Below, in pieces: positions 12,001 to 24,042 of a stretch of DNA of 64,000 nt. The translations under genes were made by a program, and so were the position numbers. The notes beneath the pieces were generated by a model. It was not told the DNA's origin. It was given only the letters and a program-made list of their open reading frames with translations, and did not search any database. The DNA comes from Thermoanaerobaculia bacterium. GTDB lineage: Bacteria; Acidobacteriota; Thermoanaerobaculia; Thermoanaerobaculales; Sulfomarinibacteraceae. The stretch lies in NCBI GenBank assembly GCA_027061805.1, contig JAMOWA010000018.1:1-64000 (forward strand), written 5' to 3'. How positions within the stretch are numbered: the first letter of the stretch is position 1; every line of letters begins with the position of its first letter.

Positions 12001-12327
12001 TCAGAGCTGGAGCGCCGCGGTGACCGGCAGCAGGAACGCGGTGGTGGGCGCCTCGCCGGGGAGCGAGGGGATCTTCAGCCCGCGGAGCCCCTCCAGCACC
12101 TCCTCCGCCTGGTCGTCCTCCAGCAGGCAGAAGACCGTCCGGCAGAAGTCGAGGCCACCGGGGACCAGCGTCCTCACACCCGCGAAGACCGGCAGGTCGC
12201 GCTCCAGGAGGCCGAGCCCCGTCTGGGACTGCAGGACGACGGAGTCCGGGAAGCCGTACTCCACGAGGGTGGAGAGCACGTCGTCCAGCACCTCCTCGTG
12301 ATGGAGTATGACCACCAGCAGCTGCAC
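12001..12327 (-). CDS. Small PII-like (ferredoxin-fold) protein
   Basis: MQLLVVILHHEEVLDDVLSTLVEYGFPDSVVLQSQTGLGLL; 108 aa; length and pattern resemble divergent PII-like proteins. Confidence 0.5.
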   Translation of the reverse strand: MQLLVVILHHEEVLDDVLSTLVEYGFPDSVVLQSQTGLGLLERDLPVFAGVRTLVPGGLDFCRTVFCLLEDDQAEEVLEGLRGLKIPSLPGEAPTTAFLLPVTAALQL

Positions 12328-12801
12328 TCACCCCTCCCCCTCGAGCCGCTTCAGGGCGGCGACGAACTCCTCGCCCGTGGTGGCGTTGATCAGGGGTTCC
12401 AGCTCGTCGGACCGCCGGGCCAGCCGGGCGATCCGGGCCAGGCCCGCCAGGTGGGGGGCCGCCGTGGTGGCGTCCCCGAGCAGGCAGAAGGCCAGCCGGA
12501 TGGGCTCGCCGTCCAGGGAGGGGTAGTCCGCAAGCCCCGAGGGGTGGGTCGATGCGGCGACCAGGACCTTCCCCAGGCCCTCGATCTGGGCGTGCGGGAC
12601 GGCCACACCGCGGCCGATGCCGGTGGAGAGGATGGCCTCCCGCTCCTTCAGGTGGGCGACCACCTCGGCCGGGTCGGTCACCCCGCCCGTGCGCGCGAAG
12701 AGCTCGGCGAACGCCGCGAAGAGCTCCTCACGGCTGCCCACCGGCGGATCGATGAGCACCCGGTCCGCCTGAAGCTTCTGGTAGAGACACAGACCGCCCA
12801 C
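12328..12801 (-). CDS. PTS EIIA-like (fructose/nitrogen type) protein
   Basis: LKEREAILSTGIGRGVAVPHAQIEGLGKVLVA: EIIA active-site His motif; start uncertain. Confidence 0.75.
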   Translation of the reverse strand: MGGLCLYQKLQADRVLIDPPVGSREELFAAFAELFARTGGVTDPAEVVAHLKEREAILSTGIGRGVAVPHAQIEGLGKVLVAASTHPSGLADYPSLDGEPIRLAFCLLGDATTAAPHLAGLARIARLARRSDELEPLINATTGEEFVAALKRLEGEG

Positions 12802-12890
12802 GTCGCCTCCGAACCCCGGCCGGTCCGCGCCGCCGCGACGGCCGGTCCCTTCGAGGGTACCGGGGCGGCCGCGGTTCCACAAGAGAGCAC

Positions 12891-12910
12891 GGCGCCCCGC
12901 AGGGGGCGCC
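12891..12910. terminator. Hairpin between RDD gene and EIIA gene
   Basis: GGCGCCCC-gcag-GGGGCGCC stem-loop. Confidence 0.45.
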
Positions 12911-12942
12911 TCCCGTCAGTTCCGGCGCGTCGGTGCGGCTCC

Positions 12943-13479
12943 TCAGTCGTTCGAGTCCACCACCATGGTCTCGGCCAGCTTGTCGCCCATGCGGCGCCCA
13001 TCGGCATCGGTGAGGACCAGGATGACCTCGATCAGGCCGATGATCATGGCCACCACGGGGCCGATGATCCAGCCCAGGACCGGGACCACCATGATCAGCG
13101 GCCCGATGGCGAAGGGGATGTTCCGCTTCACCGACGTGCCGATGTCCATGGCCTGTCCGTCCAGCCTCAGGACCCGGAGTTTCATCACGGTCTTGCCGAT
13201 GGAGCGGCCCTTCATGAAGTCCAGGTCCAGGCCGTCGCGGAGCAGCATGTAGGCCGCGCCCACGAGGCCTCCAACCACGGGGATCACCCCGACCACGCCG
13301 GCGATCACTCCGTCGATGATGGCCGCCACGATCCGCCTGCCCAGGTCGGCCTTCACGGGCGCTCCGGGCGCCTGGGCCTGCACCTCGGGTGGTGGTGGCG
13401 GCGGCACGCTCCCCGTCGGCGGCGGTGGCGGTGTCTGGCCCTCGGGCGGCTGGGTCGTGTCACGGGTCTCGTCGGTCAT
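12943..13479 (-). CDS. RDD-family membrane protein with proline-rich N-terminus
   Basis: GRRIVAAIIDGVIAGVVGVIP, RSIGKTVMKLRVLRLDG. Confidence 0.75.
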   Translation of the reverse strand: MTDETRDTTQPPEGQTPPPPPTGSVPPPPPPEVQAQAPGAPVKADLGRRIVAAIIDGVIAGVVGVIPVVGGLVGAAYMLLRDGLDLDFMKGRSIGKTVMKLRVLRLDGQAMDIGTSVKRNIPFAIGPLIMVVPVLGWIIGPVVAMIIGLIEVILVLTDADGRRMGDKLAETMVVDSND

Positions 13480-16814: not shown

Positions 16815-17590
16815 CGGATCGCAGGTACCTGGTGGCGGGCAACTGGAAGATGCACAACGGCGTGGCGGACACCAGCGCGCTCCTCGAGCGGCTCCTCGCG
16901 GAGAAGCTGCCGGGCACGGTGGACGCGGTGGTCTGCCCGCCCTTCGTGTCGCTGCCGGCCGCGGCCATGCTGCTCGCCGGCTCGGAGATCGGCCTGGGCG
17001 CCCAGAACGTGCACTGGGAGGCAAAGGGCGCCTTCACGGGCGAGATCGCGCCGGGGATGCTCACCGAGATCGGCGTGCGGTGGGTCATCGTGGGCCACTC
17101 CGAGCGCCGCAGCTACTTCGGCGAGACCGACGAGACCGCCGGGAAGCGGGCCGCCGCGGCCCAGGCCGCGGGCCTCGAGGTGATCTTCTGCCTGGGCGAG
17201 ACCCTCGAGCAGCGGGACGCCGGGGAGACCCTGGCCGTGCTCGAGAGACAGTCGGCGGTGCTGGGCGACCTGGATCCCGCCCACCTGGTGGTGGCCTACG
17301 AGCCCGTGTGGGCCATCGGCACCGGCCGGACGGCCAGCCCGGAGCAGGCCCAGGAGGCCCACGCCTTCCTGAGACAGCGGCTGGAGGCCGCCTTCGGCGG
17401 GGCCGCCGCGGGCATCCGCATCCTCTACGGTGGCAGCGTCAAGCCGCAGAATGCGGCCGTGCTCTTCGGCCAGCCGGACGTGGACGGCGGCCTCATCGGG
17501 GGTGCAAGCCTTGACGCCCGGTCATTTTCCGATATCATCCGCGCTGCGGCTTCGTGTGCCGCGGGAGATGAACAGTGGCAATACTCTTGA
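16811..17590 (+). CDS. tpiA: Triosephosphate isomerase
   Basis: VAGNWKMHNG, VGHSERRSYFGETD, AYEPVWAIGTGRTA. Confidence 0.95.
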   Translation: MTDRRYLVAGNWKMHNGVADTSALLERLLAEKLPGTVDAVVCPPFVSLPAAAMLLAGSEIGLGAQNVHWEAKGAFTGEIAPGMLTEIGVRWVIVGHSERRSYFGETDETAGKRAAAAQAAGLEVIFCLGETLEQRDAGETLAVLERQSAVLGDLDPAHLVVAYEPVWAIGTGRTASPEQAQEAHAFLRQRLEAAFGGAAAGIRILYGGSVKPQNAAVLFGQPDVDGGLIGGASLDARSFSDIIRAAASCAAGDEQWQYS

Positions 17591-18079: not shown

Positions 18080-18164
18080 GCCGAAGTGGCGGAATTGGTA
18101 GACGCGCACGGTTGAGGGCCGTGTGGAGCGATCCGTGCCGGTTCGAGTCCGGCCTTCGGCACCA
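18080..18164 (+). tRNA. tRNA-Leu (GAG), CCA encoded
   Basis: GCCGAAGTGGCGGAATTGGTAGACGCGCACGGTTGAGGGCCGTG...CCGGTTCGAGTCCGGCCTTCGGCACCA with long variable arm. Confidence 0.93.
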
Positions 18165-18165
18165 T
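18149..18165 (+). repeat. attL core in the tRNA 3' end
   Basis: CCGGCCTTCGGCACCAT. Confidence 0.85.
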
Positions 18166-18277
18166 CCCCCCTTCTCCCAACATCTCAAAAAGCCTCTAAC
18201 AAGTTGTTCTGTCATGGGGATATACTACATTCCCCGTCTCACGGTGTCTAGCGGAATCTGGTAGAATCTCATGCAGA

Positions 18278-18300
18278 GACGGGTACCGAAACGGGGACCC
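18278..18300 (+). promoter_or_regulatory. Possible integrase/excisionase arm-binding repeat, left
   Basis: gACGGGTACCgaaACGGGGACCc: two 9-bp units spaced 3 bp, mirrored at the right end. Confidence 0.5.
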
Positions 18301-18316
18301 ACTAGGGGGTGACACC

Positions 18317-19522
18317 GTGGCGAAGCTCGGAAAGCTCACAGCAAGGACCGTGGAGACCGCGGGGGTTGGCAAGCATGGGGACGGCGGGGGGCTCTGGTTC
18401 GTCGTTCGGAAGAACGGCTCGAAGGCATGGGTCTTCCGGTATACCTGGCACGGGAAAGAGCGGAGCATGGGGCTCGGGCCGTATCCAGACGTGGGGCTCG
18501 CCGAAGCCCGGGAAAAGGCCGCCGACGCTCGCCAGCTACTCAGGAACGGGGTTGACCCCATCTCCTACCGCCGCTCCCAGAGCCGGAAGGTGCCGACCTT
18601 CAAGGTGTGCGCGGAGCGGTATCTCGCAGCCCATGCCCCGGCGTGGAGCAACCCCAAGACCCCCAAGCACTGGCGGGGAAGCCTGGAGCGCCATGCATAC
18701 CCGATCATCGGGGACATGCCCGTCAACGCCATCGAGACCTCCCACGTCATGGAGATTCTGGAGACCCTGTGGTTTGACCGCCCAGAGATGGGGTCGAGGG
18801 TGCGGGGGAGAATCGAGCGCATCCTGTCATGGGCTGCTGTGCAAGGGTACCGGGACCCCCTCAACCCCGCCCGCTGGCGCGGTCACCTTGACCAACTCCT
18901 GCCCCAGCCCACGAAGGTGCGGGCCGTCGAGCACTACAAGCACGTCCCCTACCAGGAGCTGCCCGGGGTGCTGGAGAAGATCCGCTCCATGCCCGGGATC
19001 ACACCACAGGCCGTGGTGTTCATGGCTCTCACCGCTGCCCGCGGCATCGAGGTTCGGCAAGCGGAGTGGGCGGAGATCGACCTTGAGACCTCCACGTGGA
19101 CCATCCCCGGGGGGAAGATGAAGGCCGGCAAGGAGCACCGGGTGCCGCTCTCTCCCGAGGCGGTGGCACTCCTGGAAGCCCTGCCCCGCTTCGAGGGGAA
19201 AGGATCGCAGCTCATCTTCCCGAGCCCTTCGGGCGGTGTGCTTTCGGACATGGCCCTCAAGCGGGTTCTCGTTCGTGCCGGCATCGATGCGACCCCCCAC
19301 GGGCTCCGCTCCACCTTTGCGACCTGGGCGCGGGAGCAGACCGGCTACCCGTGGGAGATCGTCGAGAGCTGCCTTGCTCACGCCGTGGGATCGTCCGTTG
19401 CCCAGGCTTACAACCGAGGGGACATGCTCGCCAGGCGACGCCGGCTCATGGAGGAATGGGGAGCGTATCTCTCGACGCCCCGGCCGGCCGGCGAGGTTGT
19501 GCCGCTGCCGATGCGGGGGTGA
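18317..19522 (+). CDS. int: Tyrosine recombinase/integrase (P4-like)
   Basis: N-terminal DUF4102-like GDGGGLWFVVRKNGSKAWVFRYTWHGKERSMGLGPYPDVGLAEAREKA; ALTAARGIEVRQ, THGLRSTFATWA-type catalytic boxes. Confidence 0.92.
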   Translation: MAKLGKLTARTVETAGVGKHGDGGGLWFVVRKNGSKAWVFRYTWHGKERSMGLGPYPDVGLAEAREKAADARQLLRNGVDPISYRRSQSRKVPTFKVCAERYLAAHAPAWSNPKTPKHWRGSLERHAYPIIGDMPVNAIETSHVMEILETLWFDRPEMGSRVRGRIERILSWAAVQGYRDPLNPARWRGHLDQLLPQPTKVRAVEHYKHVPYQELPGVLEKIRSMPGITPQAVVFMALTAARGIEVRQAEWAEIDLETSTWTIPGGKMKAGKEHRVPLSPEAVALLEALPRFEGKGSQLIFPSPSGGVLSDMALKRVLVRAGIDATPHGLRSTFATWAREQTGYPWEIVESCLAHAVGSSVAQAYNRGDMLARRRRLMEEWGAYLSTPRPAGEVVPLPMRG

Positions 19523-19525
19523 CGC

Positions 19526-20173
19526 ATGACCGTGAAGAAGTACCGCAACGGTGAAGGCTGGACCGAGCGTGAGCGGACCCGCGTCACGCTGAGCACTCCC
19601 CCGACGGCAGAGGAAGTCAAGGCCATCGAGGAAGCCCTGACCTACCATGCCGCTATGAGTGACCCGATAGGGCGGGCACGTGCCTTCTGTAAGGAGCTGG
19701 CCGGGGAATACGCACAGAAGGAACGGCAGGCCATGAAGAGCGACGACCCGGCGACCCTTGCCGCGGTTCAAGAGGGGAAGCCCGAAGAAGAGACCCCCGA
19801 GGGTGTCGCCTACGCTGTCCTCCGTCGGCTGGACCTGGCGGACGCTGCCGCATCCCGTAACGACATGGCCGCCGTTGCGCGGTTCACGTGGGAAGCGGCG
19901 CAACTCTTCACCTTCGCCGCCATCCGCTACCGGTGGGAGACTCATGCACTCCGTGGCGAAAAGATCGCCAGGTCGGCCGAAGAAGGTGGGCGGATCATGC
20001 GGGAGCGGACCCTGGGCAACATCACTCCCAAGACGGAAGAGGTGCTGCGCTATGTGGCGGCCGGGCACTCCTATCAGCAAGCAGCCCGCAGGTTCGGAAA
20101 AACCAAGGCATCGGTTTCAAAGCTCTGCCAGCGTCACAAGGATCTGATGGAAAAGTTCAAGGCGGAGCTGTAA
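19526..20173 (+). CDS. Hypothetical protein with C-terminal HTH
   Basis: EEVLRYVAAGHSYQQAARRFGKTKASVSKLCQRHKDL. Confidence 0.65.
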   Translation: MTVKKYRNGEGWTERERTRVTLSTPPTAEEVKAIEEALTYHAAMSDPIGRARAFCKELAGEYAQKERQAMKSDDPATLAAVQEGKPEEETPEGVAYAVLRRLDLADAAASRNDMAAVARFTWEAAQLFTFAAIRYRWETHALRGEKIARSAEEGGRIMRERTLGNITPKTEEVLRYVAAGHSYQQAARRFGKTKASVSKLCQRHKDLMEKFKAEL

Positions 20174-20288
20174 GCCCTCCCCACCCCTTCCATGAAACCC
20201 GCACCTTCGTTCAACTGTGGGAAAGGTGGACGTGACCCCGCCCCGTGTCGCCACGCCTTGCGCCATTCTGGGCGGCAAGGAGGCGAAA

Positions 20289-20486
20289 ATGAACGAGGAA
20301 ACACTGCTCCGGCTGCCACAAGTCATTGAGCGCGTTGGGGTTTCTCGGGCAACGCTCTACCGGTGGATCGCTGACGGCACCTTCCCGCCCCCCCGCCTGC
20401 TCGGTTTGAGGGCGGTCGCCTGGCTGAGCACGGAAATCGACGGCTGGATCCAGGAACGCCAACCCGCCCGCCGACCCGCGGAGTAG
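20289..20486 (+). CDS. AlpA-like HTH regulator/excisionase
   Basis: LLRLPQVIERVGVSRATLYRWIADGTFPPPRLLGLRAVAWLSTEIDGWIQER. Confidence 0.88.
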   Translation: MNEETLLRLPQVIERVGVSRATLYRWIADGTFPPPRLLGLRAVAWLSTEIDGWIQERQPARRPAE

Positions 20487-20488
20487 CC

Positions 20489-22201
20489 ATGCCAGCGGTG
20501 GGCGATTCTGCCGGGCTCCACGACGCTGAGCGCGCGGTTCTCGGCGCGGCGCTGCTCGACCCTGACGCGGCACGGACCGCGGCCGAACTCCTGACCGCTG
20601 AGGACTTTGCCGAGGAACGGCACGGGGTGATTTTCGACGGGGTCTTGCGCGTCCTGGCGAACGGTGGGAGCCCTGACCTCCTGCTAGTCACCGAGGCTCT
20701 CCGATCCGCCGGAACCCTCCAACGCGCCGGTGGCGCAGCGTATCTCTCGGAGCTGCTTGACGTTACACCGGACGTTGCCAACGTCGCGCACTACGCAGGG
20801 CTCCTTCGCCGCGGCGCCGCCCATCGGCGCGCGACTTCGGCAATGCGGGCCGCGGCTCTGGACCCCCAGCCCGCCACCGTTGCCGCGGCAAAATCCGCGC
20901 TCGACGAACTGGAGCACGGCGCCCAGGGCGAGCCCGTCGGCGTGGTGCTGGCCGACGTCCCGCCCGAGCGTGTGGATTGGCTCTGGCCGGGGCGGATCCC
21001 GCTCGGAAAACTGACCGTGCTTGATGGTGACCCGGGGTTGGGCAAGTCAACAATCCTTCTCGACCTGTGCGCCAGGCTCAGCACAGGCCGACCCTTCCCG
21101 TTCGCCGGCGACTACGAGCCGGTTAACGGCGGCGCCGTGGTTCTGACCGCCGAGGATGGCCTCGGCGACACCGTCCGTCCGCGCCTGGAAGCGGCAGGAG
21201 CGAACCTCGCCTGCGTGCTTGCTCTCCAGACCATCGGCAAGGGGAAGGACCGGCGCGGGATCCAGCTTCCCGCCGATCTCCCGATAGTTGAGGCTGCTAT
21301 CCGGCGCGTCGATGCCCGGCTCGTTGTGGTCGATCCTCTGATGGCCTTCCTCGCCGGTGAGGTCAACTCCCACCGAGACCAAGACATTCGGCGCGCGCTC
21401 TTCGCCTTGAGCGACCTTGCGGAGCGTACCGGAGTGGCGCTGACGCTCGTCCGGCATCTCAACAAGCGGGGCGGCGGAATCCCACTTTACCGGGGCGGGG
21501 GTTCCATCGGAATCGCCGCCGCGGCACGATCCGGGCTCCTTGTCGGGAAGAAGCCCGGAGACGATGAGGTGCGGGTCCTTGCTTCGACGAAGTCAAACCT
21601 TGCACGCCCGCCCCGCTCGGTTGAATACCGGCTCGACCCGGCCGGAGGGGTTGCGGTGGTGCGCTGGACCGAAGAGTCTGACACCACCGCGGCCGACCTT
21701 GTAGCCCCACCACAGCGACGCCGGGATCTGGCACAGGCCGAGGCGGAAGACTTCCTCACCAGTCTGCTCTCCGATGGACCGATCCCGGCGGCCGAGGTCT
21801 GGTCGGCGGCTCGTGCCGCGTCGCTTTCTCGAAACACTGTTCAGCGGGCGAAATCCCGCCTCGGGATCGCCTCCACCCAGGGGCGCGATGGCTGGCTCTG
21901 GAGCCTGCCGAACGACACCCCAGAGACCCAGAGCCCCAACTCTGGGTTTTGGGGCTCTGCCCCTGCCGCTACAATGCCGATTACCCAGGAAACCCAATCG
22001 GTAGAAGGCAGAGCCCCACAGAGCCCCAATGCTGGGCACGTGCCCAAGTCAATGGCAGAGCCCCAACTCGGGATCGACCCCAGGCACTGGCCGGCGGAGC
22101 CCCGATATGAGCTTGCTTCGCTGGTGCGCGGGGGGACGCCGAGAGCTGAAGCCGTCGAGCGGATCCGCGCACAGTGGGAGCCGAACCGCTCCACCGCATA
22201 A
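20489..22201 (+). CDS. DnaB N-terminal domain fused to RepA-like AAA ATPase and C-terminal wHTH; putative replication protein
   Basis: AERAVLGAALLDPDAARTAAELLTAEDF (DnaB_N), LDGDPGLGKSTILLDL Walker A, LVVVDPLMAFL Walker B, LTLVRHLNKRGG. Confidence 0.85.
   Translation: MPAVGDSAGLHDAERAVLGAALLDPDAARTAAELLTAEDFAEERHGVIFDGVLRVLANGGSPDLLLVTEALRSAGTLQRAGGAAYLSELLDVTPDVANVAHYAGLLRRGAAHRRATSAMRAAALDPQPATVAAAKSALDELEHGAQGEPVGVVLADVPPERVDWLWPGRIPLGKLTVLDGDPGLGKSTILLDLCARLSTGRPFPFAGDYEPVNGGAVVLTAEDGLGDTVRPRLEAAGANLACVLALQTIGKGKDRRGIQLPADLPIVEAAIRRVDARLVVVDPLMAFLAGEVNSHRDQDIRRALFALSDLAERTGVALTLVRHLNKRGGGIPLYRGGGSIGIAAAARSGLLVGKKPGDDEVRVLASTKSNLARPPRSVEYRLDPAGGVAVVRWTEESDTTAADLVAPPQRRRDLAQAEAEDFLTSLLSDGPIPAAEVWSAARAASLSRNTVQRAKSRLGIASTQGRDGWLWSLPNDTPETQSPNSGFWGSAPAATMPITQETQSVEGRAPQSPNAGHVPKSMAEPQLGIDPRHWPAEPRYELASLVRGGTPRAEAVERIRAQWEPNRSTA
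21929..22068. repeat. Iteron-like cluster inside the replication gene
   Basis: AGAGCCCC at 21930, 22010, 22020 and 22057 (direct) and 21951 (inverted); 11-bp-arm hairpin CAGAGCCCCAA/TTGGGGCTCTG at 21929-21959. Confidence 0.6.
22109..22130 (+). repeat. 22-bp direct repeat copy 1
   Basis: GAGCTTGCTTCGCTGGTGCGCG, identical to 22513-22534. Confidence 0.8.
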
Positions 22202-22239
22202 CCTCAACGCGCTGCGGAACATATAACGGAGGATGACCG

Positions 22240-22749
22240 ATGCCACTATTCCAACCGAAGAACAAGACCACGACACCAGAGCCGGGGTTGATCGAGCGAA
22301 CGAAGCAGGAGCGGCAGGAAGCCGCCTCCCGCGTCTCTGAGCTGCGAGAAGAGCTTTCACAGGCCAGAAGCGAAGCGTGGAGGCTGGAAGAGGCCGCGAA
22401 GAGGCTTCCGCATGGTCCCGAGCGCCAGCAACTGGAGTGGGACACCAGGAACGCCGGGGATCGAGCCGCGGAGCTGCGGGCCGAGATCGAGACCCTTGAG
22501 GAAAAGGACGGGGAGCTTGCTTCGCTGGTGCGCGACCTTGAGCGCGAAGCCGAGCAAGCCGAGGCACGGATCCGGTACCACGCCGAGATCATCGCAAACC
22601 ACGATGCCGCCGTGAAGGCCGCCGAGGAAGAGCTGGAGCGTACCCGCCGGAACCATGATGAAGCCGTGCAGTTGAGGCAACGTGCCCTCGATGAGCTGGT
22701 GGAACGCTTGCGGGAGCTGACCGGTGAGGATGCCGGCACGGGGAGCTAA
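22240..22749 (+). CDS. Coiled-coil protein
   Basis: Heptad-rich RVSELREELSQARSEAWRLEEAAKRL... Confidence 0.7.
   Translation: MPLFQPKNKTTTPEPGLIERTKQERQEAASRVSELREELSQARSEAWRLEEAAKRLPHGPERQQLEWDTRNAGDRAAELRAEIETLEEKDGELASLVRDLEREAEQAEARIRYHAEIIANHDAAVKAAEEELERTRRNHDEAVQLRQRALDELVERLRELTGEDAGTGS
22513..22534 (+). repeat. 22-bp direct repeat copy 2
   Basis: GAGCTTGCTTCGCTGGTGCGCG; both copies in frame encode ELASLVR. Confidence 0.8.
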
Positions 22750-22751
22750 CC

Positions 22752-23486
22752 GTGGCGCGCCCCTGTACCGTCTGCTCGCACCCTGACCGTGCCGTGATTG
22801 ATGAGGCGCTGGTGGCTGGAAACGAAACGAGCCGCGCGGTTGCGCAACGGTACGGTCTGGGCAGGCACGCCGTCTGGCGGCACGCCAGGAACCACCTTGC
22901 ACCACGTCTTGCAGAGGCCGTCCGGGAGCGGGAGGCGGCAGCACGGACGGAGGCGGAGGCTCTGGTGGAGGTGGTCATGGAGCACCAGGAGGTGGAGCGC
23001 CTGACCGCCGAGAGCTTGCTCCGGCGTCTTGAGGGGACCGTGGAGGCGGCCCAGGGGCTGCTTGATGCCGCCATCGATGATGGTGACCTCCGGACCGCCG
23101 TGGGGGCGGTGAGAGAGCTTCGTGCGAGCCTCGTGACGCTGGCCCAGGCCGTGGCCGCGGCCGATGGTGCGAACCTGGAAGCCCTGGCGGGGATCCCCGA
23201 ACCTGCCCTCGACCTGGTGCACGAGGCGGTGGAGACCGTGACCGTAGCCGGCGAGGACCCCGCCACGGTGTTTGGCCGGGCCGGCCTTGCGGTCTGTGCA
23301 TCGGTCACGGCAGAGGAAGACGGCGAGGTGGTCACCCGGTGGCGGCCACTGACCGAGGTGTACCAACCCCTCGATGGAGGCATTCCCCGCGCCATCGTGG
23401 TACACGGCGAGCTTGAGGACCTGCCCGAAGGTGACCCCTTGCGAGACGCGGACCCCTCCGCGCACGTGATCCTTGTTGGCGGCTAG
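22752..23486 (+). CDS. HTH/zinc-finger-like protein, possible small-terminase-like
   Basis: CTVCSHPDRAVIDEALVAGNETSRAVAQRYGLGRHAVWRHARNHL followed by coiled coil. Confidence 0.6.
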   Translation: MARPCTVCSHPDRAVIDEALVAGNETSRAVAQRYGLGRHAVWRHARNHLAPRLAEAVREREAAARTEAEALVEVVMEHQEVERLTAESLLRRLEGTVEAAQGLLDAAIDDGDLRTAVGAVRELRASLVTLAQAVAAADGANLEALAGIPEPALDLVHEAVETVTVAGEDPATVFGRAGLAVCASVTAEEDGEVVTRWRPLTEVYQPLDGGIPRAIVVHGELEDLPEGDPLRDADPSAHVILVGG

Positions 23487-23549
23487 AAGCCCGTCTCCCG
23501 CCGCTTTCGGAGCAACCGCCCCAACCCCTGCCCGACCCGGGAAACGGCT

Positions 23550-23804
23550 TCAGAGGGGCGATTCTTTGCCGCCTTCGAGGATGATGAGCACGTCCCACAC
23601 CACACCGCCGACCGTGTGGACCTCTGCCGGTGTGGGATCGGTCAAGCCGAACCAACCCGCGACGGTGACCCGCTCGCCTGTGGGCTCCAGCACTCCCGCC
23701 TGACACGCCAGACTCCCCGCTTCCCGCCATACGTCGATCACCGTGCAGAGGCCGTCTTCCCAACGTGCGAGCGCCCGGATAACGTCGGTCTCTCCGTGTG
23801 CCAT
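23550..23804 (-). CDS. Small hypothetical protein at right end of element
   Basis: 84-aa ORF from ATG at 23804: MAHGETDVIRALARWEDGLCTVIDVWREAG... Confidence 0.45.
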   Translation of the reverse strand: MAHGETDVIRALARWEDGLCTVIDVWREAGSLACQAGVLEPTGERVTVAGWFGLTDPTPAEVHTVGGVVWDVLIILEGGKESPL

Positions 23805-23943
23805 GCCCAAGCCCTCCGAGCGGGGTTCCCCGGGGCTCCCGAGCGGCACCCCATCGCCGCCCGGACCCTCCCCGTTGCTCGGGGATCCAGGGGGTGCACG
23901 GGGGCTCCGCAGTGGCCCGTAAGTCGCTTCAAGCGACCGCGCG

Positions 23944-23968
23944 AACGGGGACCGAAACGGGTACCGGG
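23944..23968 (+). promoter_or_regulatory. Possible integrase/excisionase arm-binding repeat, right
   Basis: aACGGGGACCgaaACGGGTACCggg: same pair as at 18278-18300, units in the other order. Confidence 0.5.
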
Positions 23969-24025
23969 TTTTTCTCTGATCTTGTAACCGGCGCGGTATC
24001 AGTGTTTCCGGTCTTGGGTTCGATG

Positions 24026-24042
24026 CCGGCCTTCGGCACCAT
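24026..24042 (+). repeat. attR core (tRNA-Leu 3' fragment)
   Basis: CCGGCCTTCGGCACCAT, with partial flanking identity (GGTTCGA before, CCCC after). Confidence 0.85.

Follow-up and report, generated by a model that had tools for sequence, protein, structure and literature searches.

What kind of element sits at positions 18149-24042 of the window, a stretch of 64,000 nt from contig JAMOWA010000018.1 of a Thermoanaerobaculia bacterium, and how could it move and replicate? The first-pass annotation had described this segment as a very small satellite or replicating island at a tRNA-Leu gene. We profiled its seven ORFs against Pfam, PHROGs, and NCBIfam and found no internal stops in any of the element genes. 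The features of the locus are as follows, with TerS and TerL denoting the small and large terminase, respectively.

18080-18164 (+): tRNA-Leu(GAG), integration target, intact (ARAGORN); the same tRNA lies by secG in seven relatives
18149-18165 (+): attL core, 17-bp exact repeat shared with 24026-24042
18317-19522 (+): tyrosine integrase, 401 aa (Pfam Phage_integrase 6e-16, Arm-DNA-bind_3 4e-24; phrog_1 2e-56)
19526-20173 (+): HTH protein, 215 aa, directly behind int (weak C-terminal HTH matches)
20217-20486 (+): AlpA-like activator/excisionase (Phage_AlpA 9e-18)
20489-22201 (+): Rep, 570 aa, Pfam DnaB_N (2e-23) fused to a RepA-type AAA_25 (1e-38)
21929-22066 (four copies +, one −): five copies of CAGAGCCCCA, candidate iteron origin inside the 3′ end of rep
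22240-22749 (+): coiled-coil protein, 169 aa, directly upstream of the terS-like gene (coiled-coil matches only)
22752-23486 (+): small-terminase-like protein, 244 aa (synteny with TerL; AF2 model)
23550-23804 (−): small opposing ORF, 84 aa, weakly supported, homologue not found
24026-24042 (+): attR core, 17-bp exact repeat shared with 18149-18165

Integration site and gene content

The intact tRNA-Leu(GAG) and the 17-bp duplicate of its 3′ end at 24026, both reported in the first-pass annotation, were recovered by ARAGORN and a repeat search. The exact att repeat, CCGGCCTTCGGCACCAT, delimits an element of 5.9 kb and is enclosed by an imperfect longer match, GGTTCGAnnCCGGCCTTCGGCACCATnCCCCC, that extends it on both sides. 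A search for empty tRNA-Leu sites in relatives, which had been proposed as a check, was successful: in seven genomes of the same family, the element-free locus tpiA-secG-tRNA-Leu(GAG)-GlnRS contains one tRNA 3′ end, with a tRNA-to-GlnRS spacing that differs among genomes (about 57-2900 bp). Judged against these seven relatives, the attL sequence is of the chromosomal tRNA type (..CGAGTCCGG), and the attR sequence is a two-base variant of the element's own (..CGATGCCGG), as expected if the right copy derives from the element's attP. Since the site is empty in seven same-family genomes, comparison of the sequences indicates that the segment is a mobile insertion. The shortness of the exact repeat (only 17 bp) could be taken to suggest that a chance repeat of the tRNA end surrounds ordinary, non-mobile genes; however, shuffled DNA matched the tRNA end over no more than 14 bp (mean of the longest matches 9.9; 500 mononucleotide shuffles, 7 kb), an integrase and AlpA lie inside, and the empty sites already refute this explanation, which we regard as practically discounted. 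Exactly this element is known as one copy, in a single MAG that is 97% complete, and no exact attP junction was found in IMG/VR. Placement of the host in Thermoanaerobaculia (Acidobacteriota) was reached indirectly, through a class-mate: locus L003, whose genome ranks in the class of the window, matches JAGOBQ010000641.1 of a Thermoanaerobaculia bacterium letter for letter.

The integrase, HTH, AlpA-like, DnaB_N/RepA-like ATPase, and coiled-coil genes and the small opposing ORF lie where the first-pass annotation had them; the opposing ORF had no match. The integrase comprises the Pfam domains Arm-DNA-bind_3, Phage_int_M, and Phage_integrase. The HTH protein behind it (19526-20173) may have an accessory excision or regulatory role, and the same slot also holds a gene in loci L036, L038, L040, and L223. 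For AlpA, the ATG at 20289 (65 aa) is the likelier start. Coiled-coil genes also occur close to terS in L042, L027, and L225; PADLOC matches of the coiled-coil protein at 22240-22749 were rejected as coiled-coil noise. As the first-pass annotation had stated for capsid, tail, large terminase, and conjugation genes, no large terminase, portal, capsid, tail, or other structural or lytic gene was found among the element ORFs, and no relaxase, conjugation, or plasmid-maintenance family was matched among its proteins (Pfam, PHROGs, NCBIfam). No interference gene was recognized in the element. The bacterium's own genome contains no credible TerL (top phrog_2 match 4e-6, in a 358-aa frame), so a helper would have to come from outside.

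The putative small terminase and the candidate origin

The product of 22752-23486 has no family in Pfam or NCBIfam. Its N-terminus has a CxxC and HxxxH pattern and an HTH, followed by a long helix, and its AF2 model shows this HTH, a hairpin formed by helices 38-110 and 113-137, and a pair of C-terminal strands, with a pLDDT of about 95 over the first 70 residues that is low beyond residue 140. This domain order fits the published description of TerS as an N-terminal HTH, a helical hairpin core, and a stalk (PMC9611059). To follow its gene neighborhood, profiles were built from the members of its family, which is found in 32 IMG/VR contigs, and from the neighboring TerL. TerL lies downstream on the same strand in 28 of the 32 contigs, its ATPase ORF abutting or overlapping the family member in 24; the TerL profile detected none in the remaining four. 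PHROGs verified the adjacent TerL in L041 and L044 (3e-47 and 3e-68, respectively), with weak portal and major-head matches also present in L041. Prophages of Thermoanaerobaculia likewise pair the family member with TerL. Meiothermus phage MMP7, Thermus phage Riverbug, and vir515 have it overlapping the gene annotated as terminase, and TerL lies three genes beyond it in Methanoculleus virus Blf4. The annotators of Riverbug give the TerS name to another gene, behind TerL. Owing to this pairing with TerL in IMG/VR contigs, prophages, and cultured phages, the protein is probably a small terminase. Thus, the earlier proposal of a small terminase is supported by gene order, while the fold comparison gave it no support: the TerS models, compared by Foldseek with PDB and BFVD, matched no small terminase, and a profile search of PDB sequences with the family returned coiled coils and HTHs only. 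A C-terminal PEWxxLR...ALxPYPEAR motif present in many phage members is absent from this protein.

The five copies of CAGAGCCCCA fall within 140 bp, compared with at most two in 200 Markov shuffles of the element, and no comparable repeat cluster was found in its host flanks. The two halves of Rep correspond to two separate genes of the IMG/VR contigs L036 and L037, with 54-55% identity for the DnaB_N half and 64-66% for the AAA_25 half, and the homologous place in their rep holds five copies of a different repeat, AAGTTGGCA. In L224, eight copies of ATCCGGAAC from about 9503 onward form a candidate origin at the 3′ end of the primase gene. Taken together, these repeats suggest that an origin lies within the terminal part of rep. 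As a single query against the genome contigs, Rep alone gave no match, and an alignment search drew in numerous RepA-like proteins from Actinobacteria, Chloroflexi, and other groups; because most of them are found without this TerS or a detected TerL, Rep is not diagnostic. The AAA_25 family of rep also adjoins int and AlpA in Mycobacterium. In L108 (uncultured Rubrobacteraceae), Rep is followed by a TerS-family gene, without a detected TerL, between chromosomal genes, so that elements of this kind may also occur in Actinomycetota. Next to its gene for the closest relative of Rep, L037 encodes an HTH/helical protein without a PHROG match (16962-17480), which may be another TerS type.

Related elements in Thermoanaerobaculia

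Members of the TerS family occur in 19 of 151 genomes of the class. At least six further repeat-bounded elements of 6.4-12.3 kb contain int, AlpA, and a TerS of this family but lack TerL:

L219: 45-bp perfect repeat, tRNA-Val, 10.6 kb
L220: 49-bp perfect repeat, tRNA-like, 8.5 kb
L223: 56-bp perfect repeat, tRNA-Leu-like, 6.4 kb
L224: 25-bp perfect repeat, in tRNA-Ala, 7.6 kb
L042: 24-bp perfect repeat, 12.3 kb
L048: 19-bp perfect repeat, 12.3 kb

Our TerL HMM misses some families (e.g., the full-length TerL of L225), and the absence of TerL in relatives was therefore also read from gene lists. The TerS-bearing, TerL-less elements of the class are mostly located in tRNA genes, with direct repeats. 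Neither of the outcomes that the first-pass annotation had named as contrary to its proposal, namely these genes lying away from tRNA loci with no att repeats, or a lack of homologues in any mobile element, was observed. Among the ORFs tested, PHROGs matched only a primase in L224, a primase in L220, and, weakly, one small ORF in L223, in which no primase was recognized. One genome alone (G080) holds three different TerL-less TerS elements (L048, L219, and L220), and L219 has a head-maturation-protease-like gene at 12140-12949 (phrog_9427 5e-23) in an otherwise capsid-less element, which could be a capsid-remodeling gene.

In L038 (12.4 kb), repeats and this TerS are accompanied by a tape-measure-like gene, and the elements L221 and L225 carry both TerS and TerL. 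L036 and L037 (IMG/VR 3300013233) share the int-HTH-AlpA-DnaB_N layout and also hold ERF-like, gp10-like, tape-measure-like, and P27-like TerS genes, as read from the sequence rather than by profile; L036 has a tRNA remnant between rep and int. We considered and rejected a tandem of satellite and phage for these two contigs, as they are fragments for which a circularly permuted single phage is equally likely. In four elements, TerS is accompanied by a split TerL (L044 8822-11599, L049 5019-8322, L217 278-3806, and L218 3737-7179), whose nuclease-domain gene (phrog_27743-like) is present as at least three tandem paralogues; no capsid or portal was recognized in the stretches read of these loci.

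In a quick tree, nine satellite TerS and one phage sequence formed one set (support 95), with the TerS of the 18149-24042 element falling outside it. The satellite label required four changes on the TerS tree versus 10.8 in shuffles, none of 500 of which was as low. On balance, we lean toward the view that the minimal phage satellites of Thermoanaerobaculia form a family of their own that has not been described before, with a size of about 6-12 kb, insertion mostly in tRNA genes, an int-AlpA-primase/rep-TerS order, a zinc/HTH small terminase, and no TerL, some of which lie in tandem with a prophage at the same tRNA gene and could co-excise. Such a tandem is seen on contig 28 of G036 (L229/L230/L223), which reads tRNA-Leu(CAA), integrase, a prophage of about 39 kb, an att copy, the 6.4-kb L223 element, and another att copy. 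The prophage encodes TerL (5e-26), portal (6e-72), major head protein (8e-51), and tape measure (5e-29). As its own putative TerS is a small HTH protein different from that of L223, the prophage can be proposed only hypothetically as the helper of L223 in a possible pair.

A probable phage satellite and its alternatives

P4-like satellites are marked by psu, delta, and sid, and cfPICIs by a capsid set; no P4-like, cfPICI, or PLE marker had a PHROG or Pfam match in the seven ORFs. Gram-negative PICIs are close in kind and share int, an alpA regulator, a replication module with iteron-like repeats, a terS of their own (putative in the element), an att site, and the absence of structural and lytic genes (PMC6092414). 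Specifically, integrase, master regulator, and replication module follow the conserved order (int-HTH-AlpA-Rep), no structural or lytic gene was found among the ORFs by Pfam, PHROGs, and NCBIfam, the origin expected after rep is represented by five iteron-like repeats in its 3′ end and is only a candidate, and the terS homolog that some PICIs carry is represented by a family with strong TerL synteny and no fold match. PICI att sites are described as never prophage-occupied, which nothing at tRNA-Leu(GAG) contradicts, while the relative L223 shares tRNA-Leu(CAA) with a complete prophage. In contrast to PICIs, the element measures 5.9 kb rather than the typical 12-15 kb, its TerS belongs to a separate CxxC/HTH family, its Rep is a DnaB_N-AAA_25 fusion, no interference gene was recognized, and its host phylum is Acidobacteriota. 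PICMIs (PMC10803314) are likewise capsid-less, of about 6 kb with six or seven genes, and ordered int, small gene, alpA, and replication; the HTH gene (19526-20173) holds the position of iolg, the int-overlapping gene that PICMI115 needs for excision together with int and alpA (PMC10803314). PICMIs sit at fis and have a DUF3987/DUF5906 primase, whereas the element sits at tRNA-Leu with an AAA_25/DnaB_N Rep, which places it outside that group, and the described gene set of PICMI115 has no terS, whereas the element carries a TerS-like gene. Candidate Mycobacterium PICIs (PMC10654092) are also small int elements at tRNA genes but are defined by a capsid gene, which the element does not have. By analogy, then, the element would work like a minimal PICI/PICMI, and its formal assignment to the PICIs is at most tentative, given its small size and a TerS identified by gene neighborhood.

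We consider it likely that the segment is a very small but intact phage satellite operating in the manner of a PICI, a reading favored by the TerS synteny, the absence of TerL and structural genes, the iterons, and the recurrence of TerL-less elements in the class. The TerL synteny, the empty sites, and this recurrence also support the first-pass proposal. Excision from tRNA-Leu(GAG) would be carried out by the tyrosine integrase, probably assisted by the HTH protein and AlpA, with AlpA as the likely switch that responds to a helper phage, as in the Gram-negative PICI EcCICFT073, whose alpA is switched on by helper phages (PMC6092414). Rep, a DnaB_N-RepA fusion that could use the host DnaG, would replicate the circle from the iterons in its own 3′ end, and the element's own TerS would recognize element DNA and pass it to the TerL and capsid of the helper in a hybrid terminase, with the helper phage supplying everything else.

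Two other explanations have to be weighed against this one. A prophage remnant, in which int, early genes, and terS survived and everything from terL through lysis was deleted before the right att, would account for the layout shared with the phage-like contigs L036/L037, for the tape measure in L038, and for the coexistence of TerS and TerL in L221 and L225. It is nevertheless unlikely, given that the genes are open and on one strand (except for one weak ORF), att and tRNA are intact, and the same endpoint was reached at different sites by at least six TerL-less elements bounded by perfect repeats; most of their TerS form a group of their own, unlike what repeated decay would be expected to produce. 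Alternatively, the segment could be a plasmid-like replicating integrative island spread by transformation, GTA, or generalized transduction, with the Zn/HTH protein acting as a transcription regulator or partition-like DNA binder instead of a terminase. Rep-type AAA_25 proteins do occur on plasmids, many int-AlpA-Rep loci lack this TerS, and the C-terminus of the element's TerS is not of the phage type, but the neighborhood of the Zn/HTH family is overwhelmingly terL and none of the relaxase, conjugation, or plasmid-maintenance families was matched among the element proteins, leaving such an island a slim prospect.

Phage satellites have been described mostly from Proteobacteria, Firmicutes, Cyanobacteria, and Actinobacteria. 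In the searched library of open-access papers, none links them with Acidobacteriota; the first-pass annotation had also supposed a poorly described lineage. If the satellite reading is true, TerS-based packaging theft extends to this abundant, largely uncultivated phylum. The zinc/HTH TerS profile provides a marker for finding more such elements, and the prophage-satellite tandem of G036 is a possible, testable helper pair. Under the same reading, sizes of around 6 kb point to the smallest gene set of a satellite: one that excises, replicates, and presents its own DNA to the motor.
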